Part shown: positions 52,264-60,016 of the stretch, piece by piece
Layout: each line of letters starts with the position of its first letter
Numbering within the stretch: position 1 is the stretch's first letter
Assembly (NCBI RefSeq): GCF_000585375.1
Contig: NZ_KK073874.1
Coordinates: 3,968,001-4,032,000, forward strand
DNA from: Cryptosporangium arvum DSM 44712
Lineage (GTDB): Bacteria > Actinomycetota > Actinomycetes > Mycobacteriales > Cryptosporangiaceae
Length of the DNA stretch: 64,000 nt
Reading direction: 5' to 3'
Made by a program: the position numbers and the translations under genes
Notes under the pieces: generated by a model
Databases searched by the model: none
What the model was told of the DNA's origin: nothing
The model's input: only the letters and a program-made list of their open reading frames with translations

Positions 52264-52707
52264 ATGGCCGCCGACTTCCAGACCCACGTGCACGACCACG
52301 CCGGAGCCGGCGTGCTGGAGACCGAACAATGCCTTGCGCTGGTACGCGGCGAACGGCTCGGCCGGGTGGGGTTCGTCCGCGCCGGGACGGTCGAGGTGCT
52401 TCCGGTCAACTACGTCCTGCTCGGCACGACGATCGCGTTCAAGTCCGGATACGGATCGAAGCTCGGCGCGGCCCTGGACGGGGCGCCGATCACGTTCGAG
52501 GTGGACGGCGTCGGATACACCGGCGCGCTGCCGCTCGGCTGGAGCGTCGTCGTGAAAGGCACGGCCGGTTTCCTGGCCGACGACGAGCGCACGGCGCTGC
52601 TGCTCGCCGGGGCTCCGCTGCCGTCGCTGCCGTCCGCGGCGGCGACCGGCCGCTGGATCGTGATCCGGGCCGAGGAGATCACCGGCCGCACGGTGCCGTT
52701 CACCTAG
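52264..52707 (+). CDS. Pyridoxamine 5'-phosphate oxidase-like flavin-binding protein
   Basis: A 147-residue split-barrel protein: LETEQCLALVRGERLGRVGF, VLPVNYVLLGTTIAFKSGYG and VVVKGTAGFL are typical of the PNPOx-like group. Rv3129, a DosR-regulated mycobacterial protein, has the same family and lies next to tgs1 and devS relatives. The stop codon shares the tetranucleotide CTAG with the stop of the convergent kinase, so the two genes overlap by 4 bp. Flavin binding is inferred from the family. Confidence 0.82.
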   Translation: MAADFQTHVHDHAGAGVLETEQCLALVRGERLGRVGFVRAGTVEVLPVNYVLLGTTIAFKSGYGSKLGAALDGAPITFEVDGVGYTGALPLGWSVVVKGTAGFLADDERTALLLAGAPLPSLPSAAATGRWIVIRAEEITGRTVPFT

Positions 52708-54443
52708 GCGAGCGGTGCCGTCCAGGACAGGCAGGTGCCGTTCGGCAGAGCGGGCGCGACCAGGAACGTCCCGCCGTGGCGTTCGGCGCGCGCACGCAGA
52801 TCGGCCAGGCCGCTGCGGTCGTCGGTGGGACCCGTTCCGATGCCGTCGTCCCGGACCTCGAGCGTGATCTCGGCGCGGCGGCCCGCCTGGGCGTCCTTGG
52901 CGGTGATCCCGACCTCGACCCGGGTGGCGTGCGCGTGCCGGGCGGCGTTGCTCAGCGCCTCCCGGAGCACCGCGAGCAGGTCCGCGCCGAGGGAAGTCCC
53001 CGGGCCGCCGAGGAGCGCGTCGATCGGGCCGGAGAACCGGAGGCCGGGGGAGAAGCCCAGTGCTCCGGCGGCGTCGTTCACCAGGTCGAGGATCTCGGCC
53101 CGCAACCCACCGGTGCGGGGGCCGGTCTGCTCGAGCGCGAAGATGCTGCTCCGGATCTGGCTGATCGTGTCGTCGAGCTGCTCGACGACACCGACCAACT
53201 CGCGGGACAGCGCGCGGTCCGGTATCCGCGCCGCCGCGCCGTGCAGCGTGAGCCCGGCCGCGAACAGCCGCTGGATGACGTGGTCGTGTAGACCTTCGGC
53301 GATGCGCCGGCGTTCCTCGACCATGCCCATCCGTTCCTGGTCGGCCCGGGCGTCGGCGAGTTCGAGCCCGACGGAGGCCTGGGCGGCGAATCCGGCCGCC
53401 ATGTCCAGGTCCTCGGAGGAGAACGCCGGGCGTCCCGGATGGCGGATCACGGCGAGCACGCCGTTGGTCCGTCCGGAGCCGGTCAGCGGGACGAACAGCA
53501 TCGGGCCGGCGCTGACGTCATCGGCGATGGCCGAGCGCGGGAGGTCCGGGTGGTCGGCCGGATCCCGGAACCGGAGCGGCTGCCCGGTGGTGAAGACGTG
53601 TCCGCACAGCGAGCCGTCCGCGGCCACGTTCCGGCCGGTCACCTGATCCGCGGTTCCGCCGACGGCGACTTCCACGCGCAGCGTGGAGCGGGACTGATCC
53701 TCCGGGAGGAACAACGCGACCAGATCGGCGTCGGACAACCGCCGGGTGTTCTCGGCGATCATCCGGAGTGCGTCCCGGGTGCCGGGCGCGAGCAATCGTT
53801 GCGTGACCGCTGCGGACGCGTCGAGCCACTCGCCGCGACGGCGGGTGGACTCGAAGTGGCGGGCGTTGTCGATCGCCACCGCCGCGGTGGCGGCGAGCGC
53901 GCGGGCCAGTTCCTCGTCCTCGGCGCTGAATCGGCCGTGCACGCTGTCGGTCAGGTAGAGGTTGCCGAACACTTCGTCGCGGATGCGGATCGGGACGCCG
54001 AGGAAGTTCTCCATCGGCGGGTGCCCGGGCGGGAAACCGGACGAGCGGACGTCGTCGTCGAGCCGGTCGAGCCGGATCGGCCGGGGATCGTCGATCAGAG
54101 CACCGAGTAGCCCCTTGCCGGTCGGCAGGTCACCGATCGTGGTGACGGTGTCGGCGGGCATGCCCACGTGGACGAACTCGACCAGGCCTCCGGCCGGCGT
54201 CAGCACGCCCAGCGCGGCGTAGCGGGCGTCGAGCAGTTCGCGGGCCGCTTCGACCACGTGACGCAGCACGGCCGGTAGCGCGAGGTCGGTGACGATCAGC
54301 TGGTTGGCGCGGAGCAGACCGCGCAGCCGCCCCTGCGCGCCCATGACCTCGGTGGCGCGCTCGATCAGTTGGGCGAGGAGCTGATCGAGCTCCAGCCGGG
54401 GCAGATCCGGGAAGTGAAGCATCGGTTCTGCTTCTCGCGCCAC
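52704..54443 (-). CDS. GAF-GAF histidine kinase, DevS/DosT-like
   Basis: A 579-residue soluble kinase, almost the length of Mycobacterium DevS (578). GAF-A (about 50-200) includes SSGFPPGHPPMENFLGVPI; H141 here aligns with the heme-ligand histidine of DevS as I recall that sequence. GAF-B spans about 215-365. The HisKA_3 motif is RRIAEGLHDHVIQRLFAAGL with phospho-acceptor H386, then HATPase_c (REALSNAARHAHAT, VRDDGIG, GLADLRARAERHGG). GTG 54443 with GGAGG was chosen over ATG 54422. A CCGAAcgcTTCGG dyad lies upstream at 54482-54494. No response-regulator gene is adjacent. Confidence 0.9.
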   Translation of the reverse strand: MAREAEPMLHFPDLPRLELDQLLAQLIERATEVMGAQGRLRGLLRANQLIVTDLALPAVLRHVVEAARELLDARYAALGVLTPAGGLVEFVHVGMPADTVTTIGDLPTGKGLLGALIDDPRPIRLDRLDDDVRSSGFPPGHPPMENFLGVPIRIRDEVFGNLYLTDSVHGRFSAEDEELARALAATAAVAIDNARHFESTRRRGEWLDASAAVTQRLLAPGTRDALRMIAENTRRLSDADLVALFLPEDQSRSTLRVEVAVGGTADQVTGRNVAADGSLCGHVFTTGQPLRFRDPADHPDLPRSAIADDVSAGPMLFVPLTGSGRTNGVLAVIRHPGRPAFSSEDLDMAAGFAAQASVGLELADARADQERMGMVEERRRIAEGLHDHVIQRLFAAGLTLHGAAARIPDRALSRELVGVVEQLDDTISQIRSSIFALEQTGPRTGGLRAEILDLVNDAAGALGFSPGLRFSGPIDALLGGPGTSLGADLLAVLREALSNAARHAHATRVEVGITAKDAQAGRRAEITLEVRDDGIGTGPTDDRSGLADLRARAERHGGTFLVAPALPNGTCLSWTAPLA

Positions 54444-54562
54444 GCTGTCCTCCAGGGACCATGCTGAGTAGGCGCCACTCTCCGAACGCTTCGGCTCTCC
54501 CACCCTACGCTCAGGGCGGCCGCGAGAACCGTGGTCGCGGCCGGCTTCGGTGCGTACCGCTC

Positions 54563-57087
54563 TCAGCGCGTGTCGGACCCCGTCCCGGCCACGGCGGCAC
54601 GGCCGGCCTCCAGGCGCGCGATCGGCACCCGGTACGGCGAGCACGAGACGTAGTCCAAACCGGCGTCGTGGAAGAAGTGCACCGACTCCGGGTCTCCGCC
54701 GTGTTCGCCGCAGACGCCGATGTGCAGCTCCGGGCGCGCCGCCCGGCCCTCCTCGACCGCGATGCGGATCATCCGGCCGATGCCCTTCCGGTCGATCGTC
54801 TCGAACGGCGACACCCCGAAGATGCCCAGTTCCAGGTAGCGGGAGAAGAACGCGCCCTCGACGTCGTCGCGGGAGAACCCCCAGCCCATCTGGGTCAGGT
54901 CGTTCGTCCCGAACGAGAAGAAGTCGGCCGCGTGCGCGATCTCGCCGGCGGTGAGCGCCGCGCGCGGGACTTCGATCATCGTGCCGATCCTCACCGGGAA
55001 TCCGGCGGTCAGCTTCTCCGCCTCGGCGCGCACGGTCTCCAGCTCCTGCACGGTACCGACGAGCGGCACCATGATCTCCGGCCGCGGATCGCCGCCCGCC
55101 TCGCGGTGCGCGACCGCCGCTCGCACGATCGCGCGGATCTGCATGGCGAACAGACCGGGAACGACGAGCCCGAGACGCACACCGCGCAACCCGAGCATCG
55201 GGTTGGCCTCGTGCATCCGGCGCACGGCCGCGAGCAGGGCCAGGTCGCTCCCGGGGTCGTTCCCGAGCGCCTGGGCGACGCCGACCTTCACCGCCAGTTC
55301 TTCCAGCGACGGCAGGAACTCGTGCAGCGGCGGGTCGATCAACCGGATCGTGACCGGCAGACCGTCCATCTCCCGGAACAGCTCCTCGAAGTCCGCCTGC
55401 TGCAGCGGCAGCAGCGCATCCAGCGCGAGCTCGCGTCCGGCGGCGTCGTCGGCCAGGACGAGCCGTTCGATCAGGCCCCGGCGCTCCCCGAGGAACATGT
55501 GCTCGGTGCGGCACAGCCCGACGCCCTCGGCGCCGAAGCGCCGGGCCCGGGCGGCATCGGGGCCGGTGTCGGCGTTGGCGTGCACACCGAGCCGGCGCCG
55601 GGCGTCCGCGTGCCGGAGCAGCCGGTCGACGGCCGCGACCAGCCGGTCGGCGGTCGGGGCCAGGGAGCCCTCGAAGTACCGCACGACCGGCGACGGCGCG
55701 ACCGGCACCGCGCCGAGGTAGACGCGCCCGGTGGTCCCGTCGATCGAGATCACCTCGCCCTCGGTGAGCACGTGTCCGTCGACGGTCAGCTCGCGCCGCT
55801 CGGCGTCGACCTGCAGGCCGTCCGCGCCGCAGACACAGGTCTTGCCCATGCCGCGGGCCACCACCGCGGCATGGGACGTCTTGCCTCCCCGGCTGGTCAG
55901 GATCCCGTCGGCGGCGATCATGCCGGGCAGGTCGTCGGGGTTGGTCTCCCGGCGCACGAGGACGACGTGCTCGCCTTCGGCGGCGAGCGCGGTGGCGCGA
56001 GCCGAGTCGAAGACGATCCGCCCCACGGCGGCGCCGGGGGAGGCGCCGACGCCGTGCGCGAGCGCGCGAGTGGCCGCGCCGACCTCGAACATGGGGAACA
56101 TCAGGTGCGCCAGCTGCGTGCCGTCGACGCGGGCCAGGGCCTCGTCGGCGTCGATCAGCCCTTCGTCGATCAGCTGGGACGCGATGACGAACGCGGCGGC
56201 GGCGGTGCGCTTGCCGACCCGGGTCTGCAGCATCCAGAGCGTGCCGCGCTCGATCGTGAACTCGATGTCGCAGAGGTCGCGGTAGTGCGCCTCCAGCGTC
56301 GCCATGTGTTCGAGCAGTTCGCGGTACGAGGAGGGATCGATCTGCTCCAGGTCCTGCAGCGGCACGGTGTTGCGGATGCCCGCGACGACGTCCTCGCCCT
56401 GGGCGTCCGGCAGGTAGTCGCCGTAGACGCCCCGGGCGCCGGTGGCCGGATCGCGGGTGAACGCGACGCCGGTGCCGGAGTCGGGCCCGAGGTTGCCGAA
56501 CACCATCGCCATCACGTTCACCGCGGTGCCGAGGTGGGCAGGGATGCGTTCCTGGCGACGGTAGAGCACGGCGCGTTCGGAGTTCCACGACTCGAACACC
56601 GCGCGCACCGCGAGGTCCAGTTGCTCGCGGGGGTCCTGCGGGAACGGCCGGCCGGTGTGTTCGAGGAAGACCTTTTGATATGCGGTGACGAGTTCTTCCG
56701 GGTCCTCGACGAGTGCTTTCGCCGCGTCGAAGTCCGCGGACGGGACGCCGCACACCGTGCGTCCGAACATCTCGATCAACCGCCGGTAGGAGTCCCAGGC
56801 CGACTCGCCCCGGTGCGCCGCGAGACCAGCAGCGGATCGGACGGGTCACCGAGGCGACGGCCCATCCGGCGTTCGAGGTCAGCGAGTTTCTCGCTGACCT
56901 GATCGGCCAGTTCGGCCGGCTCCCGGCCGGTTCGCAGGTAGGCCCGGCAGGCCTCGGTGGTGATCGTGAAGCCGGGCGGCACCGGGAGACCGATGGTGGT
57001 CATCTCGGCCAGGTTCGCTCCCTTCCCGCCCAGCAGGTCCTTCATGTCCTTGTTGCCGTGGGTGAAGTCGTAGACGAACGTGACCAT
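54563..57087 (-). pseudogene. ppdK: Pyruvate phosphate dikinase interrupted by an internal deletion
   Basis: ATG 57087 starts a normal PPDK N-terminus (FVYDFTHGNKDMKDLLGGKG, AEMTTIGLPVPPGFTITTEA) that runs to GDPSDPLLVS and then shifts frame and stops near 56776. The second frame resumes with GLAAHRGESAWDSYRRLIEM and is intact to 54563, with the phosphohistidine motif GGKTSHAAVVARGM and C-terminal IGVCGEHGGDP. The missing piece, about 30 codons, normally carries VRSGAKxSMPGMMDT, part of the ATP site. A GGTCTCG at 56821-56827 sits exactly at the joint. Full enzyme cannot be made without recoding; a truncated C-terminal product from TTG 56779 is possible. Confidence 0.8.
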
Positions 57088-57099
57088 CGGAGCGTCTCC

Positions 57100-58065
57100 T
57101 TACGATTGGCCGGGGAACCCGAGCGCGTCCGAGTTCGGACGCCGGACGGTCCGGGGTGGGGCCGCCGTGTCGGCGGGGACGCCGATCCGCAGCGCGATCG
57201 CCGGGTGGTCGCTCCCGCCCAGCAGGGTGCGCAGCGCACGCCGGGCCGAGGAGACCTCGACCACTTCGCTGATCGGCGACGCGACGAGCCTGTGGCCGGT
57301 CAGCGTCAGCCAGACGTCGGACAGCGCCTCGCCGGCCGCCAGCCAGGAGCGGCGGTCGTCGCGTTCGGTGAGCAGGACGCCGTAGGCGGTGCCGCCGTCG
57401 GTGCCCGAACCCAGCTGCTCGTGCTCACGGCGGAAGGTGCGCGTCGGCACGGTCCGCCAGGTGTCCGGCACGATGGTGCGGCCGGGCAGGCCGTCGCGCC
57501 GGTCGGCCGGGCGGGTGGTCCAGGTCCGCAGATCGCGCAGGAGCGACGGCTCGGCGTGTTCGACGACGTCGGCCACCTCGGCGATGTCGGCGAACGAGGT
57601 GAGCTCGTCCGGCGTCAGGAACCGCAGCCGGGCATCGTGGCGCCCGGCGGCCGCCCGCAGCGCGTCCAGGTCGGCGGCCGCGGGCGGCTTCTCCGCGAAC
57701 GGCCGGCGCTCGGTCTGGCGGCGGTAGATCGCCTCGTGGTTCCGTGGGTCGGCCACGCAGCGCGCACCGAGACGCAGCCGGGCCACCAGCTCCGGCCGGG
57801 TGTCGTCCGGCAGGCGCTCGACGCTCCCGGCGTACCCACCGGCGCGCAGCGCCGCCACCGCGTGGTCCAGGGCGGCGCCGCAGCTGAGCAGCAGCAGGCG
57901 TCCGTCGGGGTCGAGCGCGCCGAGCCGGCGGTCGGCGTCGAGCCGGAGCTCCGCGGTGTCGCCGAGGAACGTCCACCGCCAGGGCTGGGTGTTGAGGACC
58001 GATGGGGCGCGGAGCGCCGCCAGGGTCGCTTCGGTCAGCTGGTCGATTGCCGCACGGTCGGACAT
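57100..58065 (-). CDS. Acg-family nitroreductase-like protein
   Basis: A 321-residue protein of the Acg (Rv2032/Rv3131/Rv3127) group, a doubled nitroreductase fold with a lid. Motifs are LRAPSVLNTQPWRW (N-terminal), DGRLLLLSCGAALDHAVAAL, RRQTERRPFAEKPP and GEALSDVWLTLTGHRLVASP. In mycobacteria these proteins are strongly DosR-induced and may sequester FMN rather than reduce nitro substrates. It lies 12 bp upstream of the PPDK start, so the two share a transcript led by the boxes at 58125-58166. ATG 58065 has a GAAGGGAAC site. Confidence 0.9.
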   Translation of the reverse strand: MSDRAAIDQLTEATLAALRAPSVLNTQPWRWTFLGDTAELRLDADRRLGALDPDGRLLLLSCGAALDHAVAALRAGGYAGSVERLPDDTRPELVARLRLGARCVADPRNHEAIYRRQTERRPFAEKPPAAADLDALRAAAGRHDARLRFLTPDELTSFADIAEVADVVEHAEPSLLRDLRTWTTRPADRRDGLPGRTIVPDTWRTVPTRTFRREHEQLGSGTDGGTAYGVLLTERDDRRSWLAAGEALSDVWLTLTGHRLVASPISEVVEVSSARRALRTLLGGSDHPAIALRIGVPADTAAPPRTVRRPNSDALGFPGQS

Positions 58066-58181: not shown

Positions 58182-59219
58182 TCAGCCGGGGACGACGACG
58201 GCGCGGCCGGGCACGGTGCCGGCGGCGACCGCCGCGTAGGCGTCGGTGGCCCGGCTCAGCGGCCAGGTGCGCACCTCGGCGCGCAGGTCCCCGCGCGCGG
58301 CCAGCCGCAGCACCTCGTGCAGCTCGGGGCGGGTTCCCCAGTAGGTGGGCGTGACCGAGACGCCGTAGGGCGTACCGAGCAGCGACACCGGCAACACCCC
58401 ACCACCCAGTCCGACGATCAGGATCTGACCGCCCTTCGCGACCGACCTCGCCGCGATCGACAACGTGGCGTCGGAACCGACCAGGTCGAGGACGGCCGCG
58501 GCACCCGCACCGCGGGTGAGGTTGCGGACGGCGTCCTCGGCGCACGCGCTGGCGTGCACCAGGTGGTCGGCGCCGCACGTCTTGGCCAACTCGAGGGCCT
58601 CGGGTTTGGTGTCCACGGCGATGATCTCGGAATCGGTGGTCGCGCGCAGGATCTGCACGGCGAGGTGCCCCAGGCCGCCGATGCCGATCACGACCGCGGT
58701 GGCGCCCGGCGTCAGCACGGACCGTGCCTTGGCGATCGCGTGGTAGGGCGTGAGGGCCGCGTCGGTCAGTGGCGCGGCCTCGGCCGGCGACAGGCCGTCC
58801 GGCAGCGGAACGAGGAAGCGTGCCGACGGCACCAGCAGGTACTCGGCCATTCCGCCGTCGGCCCCGAGGCCGGCGACGGTCCAGTTGCCGGGCACCGACG
58901 CGCAGTAGTTCTCGGCGCCGGTGGCGCAGGTGCGGCACGTTCCGCAGCCCCACGGCCCGTACACCGCGACCGGGAGGCCCGGCTCCAGGTCGACTCCCGC
59001 GCCGACGGCGTGCACCCAGCCGGCGTTCTCGTGGCCGAGCGTGAACGGCACCGGCCAGTCGAGCAGGCCGGGCGGGAAATCGTGGAGGAGGTGGAGGTCG
59101 GAGTGGCAGACGCCGGCGCCGCCGACACGGACGAGTACCTGCCCCGGTCCCGGGTCGGGGACGGGCAGCTCGGCGAACTCGGGGTCGTGGTGCCAGGCGA
59201 CGAGGCGGAGCGCGCGCAT
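58182..59219 (-). CDS. Zinc-dependent alcohol dehydrogenase (AdhA/AdhT-like)
   Basis: A 345-residue medium-chain dehydrogenase. Zinc ligands are in GVCHSDLHLLHD and LGHENAGWVH, the structural lobe is CGTCRTCATGAENYC, and the cofactor loop is VVIGIGGLGHLAVQIL. It resembles bacterial NAD-dependent ethanol-type dehydrogenases. With PFL producing acetyl-CoA, it could dispose of NADH by reducing acetaldehyde; no acetaldehyde-forming enzyme is in the window, so this is inference. A strong palindrome sits 19 bp before its ATG. Confidence 0.9.
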   Translation of the reverse strand: MRALRLVAWHHDPEFAELPVPDPGPGQVLVRVGGAGVCHSDLHLLHDFPPGLLDWPVPFTLGHENAGWVHAVGAGVDLEPGLPVAVYGPWGCGTCRTCATGAENYCASVPGNWTVAGLGADGGMAEYLLVPSARFLVPLPDGLSPAEAAPLTDAALTPYHAIAKARSVLTPGATAVVIGIGGLGHLAVQILRATTDSEIIAVDTKPEALELAKTCGADHLVHASACAEDAVRNLTRGAGAAAVLDLVGSDATLSIAARSVAKGGQILIVGLGGGVLPVSLLGTPYGVSVTPTYWGTRPELHEVLRLAARGDLRAEVRTWPLSRATDAYAAVAAGTVPGRAVVVPG

Positions 59220-59291: not shown

Positions 59292-59885
59292 TCACGTGAG
59301 CCAGGGGAACCTCTGGACCAGCGCGGTCTGCCGCCACCAGGTGCCGAAGCCGAAGTAGTTGCCGGCTCCGAGCAGGACGAGCGCGGCCACGATCAGCGCG
59401 CCGAGGATGTGATCGTCGGTGATCGGGTTGTTCTCCGGGGGCAGCGCGACGGTCCACATCAGGACGTAGAGCAGGCTGCCGCTGACGCCGGCGATGCGCA
59501 TTCCGATGCCGAGCGTCATCGCGACGCCGATGCCGAGCAGACCGAGCATGAACGCCCAGTTGGCGAAGGCGGTGCCGGCCAGGTCGTGGTAGAGGCCTTC
59601 GAACGGGCCCTTGGCGCCGTTCGCCAGGAAGCCCTGCGTGGGCGAACCGCCGTCGATCCAGCCCTTGCCGGCGGGCGTCGCGTAGCCGAGACCGAAGACC
59701 TTGTCGACGAACGCCCACAGGAACGTCCAGCCGACGACGATCCGGGTCGCGGCGAGCACGATCCGGGTCGCGGTGGCGGTGCGGCCGTCCGGCGTGTCGT
59801 AGAGCGCGGCCGGGCTGTCGGGGGCGGTCAGGTGGAGCGAGTCGGGGATGTGGAGGCGGTGCTGCTTGCCGTGGGTGGTGGCCAT
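59292..59885 (-). CDS. DoxX-family membrane protein
   Basis: A 197-residue protein with four helices (about 42-62, 105-128, 133-150, 160-180): [53 protein letters not shown] and [20 protein letters not shown]. It matches the DoxX/TQO small-subunit-like group seen in actinobacteria. The function is probably in quinone-linked redox, but no partner subunit is present. ATG 59885 lies 69 bp from a box. Confidence 0.85.
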
Positions 59886-60000: not shown

Positions 60001-60016
60001 CGGGACCTTGGTCCCG
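60001..60016. promoter_or_regulatory. Symmetrical DosR-like dyad
   Basis: CGGGACCTTGGTCCCG: 7-bp arms CGGGACC/GGTCCCG around TT, the most symmetrical copy and the closest to the mycobacterial form. It lies 115 bp before DoxX and about 260 bp before the ATPase, so it may act as a distal site for DoxX. Confidence 0.55.

Follow-up and report, generated by a model that had tools for sequence, protein, structure and literature searches.

Two described systems lie closest to the locus considered here. In Mycobacterium tuberculosis DosT serves as a second kinase for DosR, and its gene, dosT, is constitutive and stands outside the DosR regulon (PMC10034137). Glu87 of DosS has been proposed to block a channel and to promote autoxidation, a proposal on which the review itself notes disagreement (PMC4082495). 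In Streptomyces coelicolor the OsdK/OsdR pair is encoded by SCO0203/0204, and an orphan kinase, SCO0211, lies close by to judge from its locus number (PMC9739842); the PPDK gene SCO0208 belongs to the regulon (PMC5069765).

The stretch analysed (the window) comprises 64,000 nucleotides of Cryptosporangium arvum DSM 44712, C1:3968001-4032000 within a 9.2-Mb single-contig genome; coordinates given without a contig or locus name are those of the window. It carries the gene of a sensor kinase, K1, which is very probably a DosT-like second heme-GAF kinase feeding into the DevR dormancy/hypoxia regulon via a regulator encoded outside the window, DevR1, and perhaps via its near-copy DevR2.

Gene and domain organization of K1

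K1 and its parts are located as follows:

52704..54443, (-) strand: K1, DevS/DosT-like GAF-GAF-HisKA_3-HATPase sensor kinase (579 aa, GTG start, GGAGG upstream)
53868..54278, (-) strand: GAF-A, predicted heme domain, residues 56-192 (best solved match DosT GAF-A, 2vzw)
53361..53768, (-) strand: GAF-B, residues 226-361 (domain search)
53127..53315, (-) strand: HisKA_3, residues 377-439 (domain search)
53286..53288, (-) strand: His386 codon, the phospho-acceptor of EGLHDHVIQRLFA
52710..52982, (-) strand: HATPase_c, residues 488-578 (domain search)

The reading frame is unbroken across its 579 aa, close to the family length of about 575 aa, and the domain order is GAF-A, GAF-B, HisKA_3, HATPase_c. 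Pfam GAF_2 matches K1 in two stretches (1.3e-36), HisKA_3 with 8.4e-10 and HATPase_c with 1.4e-8; the H, N and G1 motifs are retained together with those of the pocket. An earlier note, made on this DNA from its letters, had described a kinase of DevS length with tandem GAFs, a segment holding the presumed heme histidine H141 and a phospho-acceptor in LHDHVIQR, and all of this holds, H141 being aligned as set out below and the phospho-acceptor being H386. It is worth adding that residue 384 of K1 (53292-53294) is Gly, giving EGLHD, whereas Asp stands here (RDLHD/EDLHD) in almost every relative, that of the congener among them; judged from the motif, this substitution could weaken the kinase.

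The predicted heme pocket

Among the solved structures the closest to K1 GAF-A is GAF-A of DosT (2vzw, 4.5e-45), that of DosS matching with 4e-41. In a K1 model built from nine relatives (mean pLDDT 80.6, pTM 0.51) GAF-A superposes on 2vzw with an rmsd of 1.6 Å over 141 columns at 58% identity, and the GFPPGHPPM segment of K1, containing H141, aligns with the corresponding DosS/DosT GAF-A segment. Three pocket positions were assigned by alignment to the residues described for DosS and DosT (PMC4082495):

54021..54023, (-) strand: His141 codon, aligned to the heme ligand DosS H149
53955..53957, (-) strand: Tyr163 codon, aligned to the distal DosS Y171 / DosT Y169
54207..54209, (-) strand: Gly79 codon, at the position of DosS E87 / DosT G85

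H141, Y163, and G79 are invariant among the nine aligned relatives. Gly occupies the 85/87 channel position in almost all relatives, including K2, the K1 paralog described below; because Gly is the common family state, Gly79 is a weak DosT discriminator. Read from the alignment, it proves by itself no special link between K1 and DosT, and "DosT-like" at the channel position amounts to one residue.

Neighbouring genes and DevR-type boxes

The surroundings of K1 comprise the following features:

52264..52707, (+) strand: PNPOx-like gene (Pfam Pyridox_ox_2), convergent with K1 and overlapping its end by 4 bp
54563..57087, (-) strand: PPDK pseudogene in two frames, 119 bp upstream of K1
57100..58065, (-) strand: nitroreductase-like gene, co-directional, start approximate
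58182..59219, (-) strand: zinc-type alcohol dehydrogenase (ADH) gene, co-directional
59292..59885, (-) strand: DoxX-like protein, named by eye (no Pfam match), at the head of the co-directional run
60002..60015, no strand: GGGACCTTGGTCCC, a perfect palindrome of the DevR-box type, at the head of the run and also lying before a divergent P-type ATPase gene

Both immediate neighbours had been named correctly in the earlier note: the first matches Pyridox_ox_2, and TIGR01828 is found in both ORFs of the PPDK pseudogene, which carries an 88-bp deletion and a frameshift in the ATP-binding part (56713-56802), the copy of the congener being intact (877 aa). The genes on one strand form a run of five, in the order DoxX-like (by eye), ADH, nitroreductase, PPDK and, as the last, K1; the earlier note had not considered this box-headed run. 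G003, a congener, keeps the box (L053:1800) and the run's first four genes in order, with PPDK intact, and its K1 ortholog is preceded by an opposite-strand TerC-like gene and a small gene of winged-helix type (names read from sequence). Across the genus, then, K1 does not always adjoin the run led by the box.

Scanning with a loose matrix for the box proved useless in DNA so rich in GC, and the pattern RGGACSWWSGTCCY took its place. Eight such boxes were found in the window against 1.07 expected, so that as a set they are real and the boxes do persist, as had been claimed. Exact GGGACNNNNGTCCC sites number eight genome-wide, three of them in this island; a reversed-pattern control gives six, and the exact genome-wide count alone is therefore not strong. 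No RGGACSWWSGTCCY box, with up to two mismatches allowed, was found in the 119 bp before K1, in agreement with the earlier note, nor was any box found between devR1 and K2. Among the kinase relatives a box lies within 480 bp upstream in 14 of 79 (0 of 79 in an equal intragenic stretch), and the lack of an own box is therefore usual. As to regulon membership, K1 has no local box, yet its run has the head box at 60002, and the congener arrangement differs. The CCGAA/TTCGG dyad noted before K1 does exist, at 54482, but gives no support to the separate control that it had been taken to suggest: the window contains 194 comparable dyads (5-bp arms, 3-nt loop), which is chance level, and the dyad is not conserved in the congener.

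Two further box sites were recorded. One is a perfect box, GGGACCTTCGTCCC, at L009:6848-6861 (window coordinate 69848) in the same island; it immediately precedes a second PNPOx-like gene and has an ADH gene on its other side. The other is a tandem of boxes, at L151:6701 and 6791, ahead of a USP gene in the devR neighbourhood of the congener G002, whose K2 ortholog is on another contig.

DevR regulators and the second kinase

No GerE-type regulator was found inside the 64-kb window, and K1 is indeed without an adjacent regulator. A genome search for DevR-type regulators, as the earlier note had proposed, returned two of them, DevR1 and a second copy, DevR2, 92% identical to it, the third-best regulator being only 43% identical. 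The loci concerned are:

L009:8708-9358, (-) strand: DevR1, 216-aa regulator (REC + GerE), divergent from K2 and 87 bp apart from it
C1:4040479-4042182, (+) strand: K2, 45% identical to K1
C1 about 849316-849954 (0.85 Mb): DevR2, intact 211-aa frame beside a decayed kinase
L150:8631-9240 = C1:848631-849240, (-) strand: K2-like kinase pseudogene, divergent from devR2

DevR1 belongs to the island of K1 and occupies 71708-72358 in window coordinates, 17.3 kb from K1 and 7.7 kb past the window end. It matches M. tuberculosis DevR (3c3w) over its full length (3.8e-72) and is the regulator closest to it in the genome. The regulator of K1 had been expected to be either elsewhere or lost; the former stands, with DevR1 17.3 kb off and DevR2 at 0.85 Mb, and loss of devR is ruled out by these two copies. 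Moreover, the devR1 gene, a short way beyond the window, has another kinase, K2, as its pair, an arrangement which the earlier note itself had named as counting against its reading.

K2 is the one close paralog of K1 in its own genome, and the two are the only full DevS-like kinases there; that K1 is a recent copy of K2 is ruled out by the 45% identity and by their separate clades. The kinase remnant at devR2 corresponds to K2 residues 40-58 and 202-371, followed by pieces of the ATPase region; GAF-A is gone, as are the helix with the phospho-acceptor and the greater part of the ATPase. DevR1 and DevR2 are 94% identical across shared columns, with the kinase-facing residues nearly alike. The genome set consists of an intact pair, K2-DevR1, of DevR2 with a dead kinase, and of K1 without a neighbour regulator.

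Relatives of K1 and their partners

Scanning of contigs for DevS-like loci gave 80 named loci, to which two congener loci were added, and adjacency was defined as the presence of a DevR-like gene within 700 bp of the kinase gene. By this measure 42 kinases are adjacent to devR, 16 have it in the locus but farther away, 13 have none in flanks of at least 5 kb either way, and 12 are unscorable; the non-adjacent ones make up 29 of the 71 scorable loci, in a sample that is uneven, the loci having been chosen by query similarity. Absence of an adjacent devR is common in this kinase family. The orphan state of K1 is ordinary, and the mismatched kinase/regulator set is the only mildly unusual part.

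In the kinase tree (quick method, no bootstrap) K1 groups with kinases from a congener, Pseudonocardia, and Actinoplanes (SH-aLRT 99). The larger clade around them (96) includes kinases of Microbacteriaceae and Jatrophihabitans that are encoded directly beside devR, and K2 falls on the other side of the tree. The K1 clade is not that of the kinases whose DevRs are nearest to DevR1 and DevR2; the partner match was therefore not inherited as a pair. On DevR, the surfaces that should face the kinase hardly differ between regulators whose partner is from the clade of K1 and those whose partner is from that of K2.

Kinase matches outnumber DevR matches in several of 41 genomes of the order, e.g., 4 vs 2 in G005, G007, and G008, counts obtained with different cut-offs and including some partial kinase matches. 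Of three congeners, one has no relative at the cut-off and another has the K2 type only. An intact K1 ortholog, 76% identical to K1, is present in G003 (L053, L055, L056), where no devR was found and K2-like pieces lie at contig ends; assembly gaps may hide devR in this genome.

Proposed role of K1

Heme binding, gas response, phosphotransfer, and transcription of K1 we infer by analogy. The kinase is predicted to be soluble, and O2 on the GAF-A heme, with His141 as the proximal and Tyr163 as the distal residue, would keep it off. Loss of O2, or binding of NO or CO, would lead to autophosphorylation at His386, the site being deduced from the family, and the phosphate would be transferred in trans to DevR1, encoded 17 kb off beside K2, and possibly to the 92%-identical DevR2. 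These regulators would in turn act on GGGAC-N4-GTCCC boxes. A DevR is taken as the partner of K1 because the genome encodes only two of them, the next regulator is at 43%, and kinases of the K1 clade adjoin devR elsewhere.

K1 could instead mainly serve DevR2 as a replacement for the decayed kinase, with K2-DevR1 and K1-DevR2 forming parallel circuits. This would suit an intact 211-aa DevR2 facing a remnant without GAF-A or phospho-acceptor helix and with little of its ATPase left, in a genome where K1 and K2 are the sole full DevS-like kinases, but with 94% identity of the two regulators across shared columns and near-identical kinase-facing residues an exclusive pairing is unexpected, and K2 could serve both; we consider it unlikely. 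The related idea of a partner swap in progress, in which decay of the kinase at a duplicated DevR locus was followed by recruitment of K1 from the other clade, is offered as a tentative one, on the doubtful side. If true, it would mean two heme sensors and two near-identical DevRs, with oxygen inputs split or integrated.

The broken PPDK gene adjoining K1 and the EGLHD substitution, as well as the congener lacking any relative at the cut-off and the one having the K2 type only, could be taken to mean that the island is eroding and that K1 is degenerating or catalytically weak, in which case it may work as a phosphatase or have no activity. Nevertheless, the 579-aa frame is intact, the H, N, G1, and pocket motifs are kept, and the congener ortholog (76%) is intact as well, which leaves this explanation quite improbable. 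Still less probable is signalling of K1 to an unrelated regulator of the NarL type encoded at another site: the 127 GerE-domain matches in the genome offer room for it, and S. coelicolor OsdK also phosphorylates the orphan regulator SCO3818 (PMC9739842), but the genome does encode true DevR orthologs, and in other genomes kinases of the K1 clade adjoin DevR.

With K1 read as a second sensor kinase for DevR, the locus gives a large actinomycete genome an oxygen sensor of the dormancy type and an island of the DevR regulon, in the two-kinase layout of M. tuberculosis, and the intact pair, the other-clade orphan, and the regulator with a dead kinase together offer a natural test of partner swapping in one family.

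Comparison with known systems

K1 shares its domain types and pocket His/Tyr with DevS/DosS (Rv3132c). The two differ in the channel, where DosS has Glu87 and K1 has Gly, and in location, the DosS gene lying beside devR and K1 having no adjacent devR. The likeness to DosT (Rv2027c) extends to the fold and sequence of GAF-A, the heme-ligand and distal-Tyr positions, the Gly at position 85/87, and the kinase ATPase domain (3zxq). Like DosT, K1 is without an adjacent regulator and is, genome-wide, a second kinase beside a devR-kinase pair, and the lack of a box directly before its gene recalls dosT, which is outside the DosR regulon (PMC10034137). This likeness is one of sequence, model, and layout.

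The PPDK, USP, nitroreductase, ADH, and PNPOx genes are also those of the island in the soil actinomycete S. coelicolor (PMC5069765, PMC9739842). There, too, one kinase is paired with devR and another, SCO0211, stands unpaired in the vicinity, being likened to K1 by its locus number. The box is of the GGGAC type here, unlike the GGGCC type of Streptomyces. By analogy, the layout around K1 parallels both DosS/DosT/DosR and the S. coelicolor OsdK/OsdR island and is that of an ordinary system, not a broken one.
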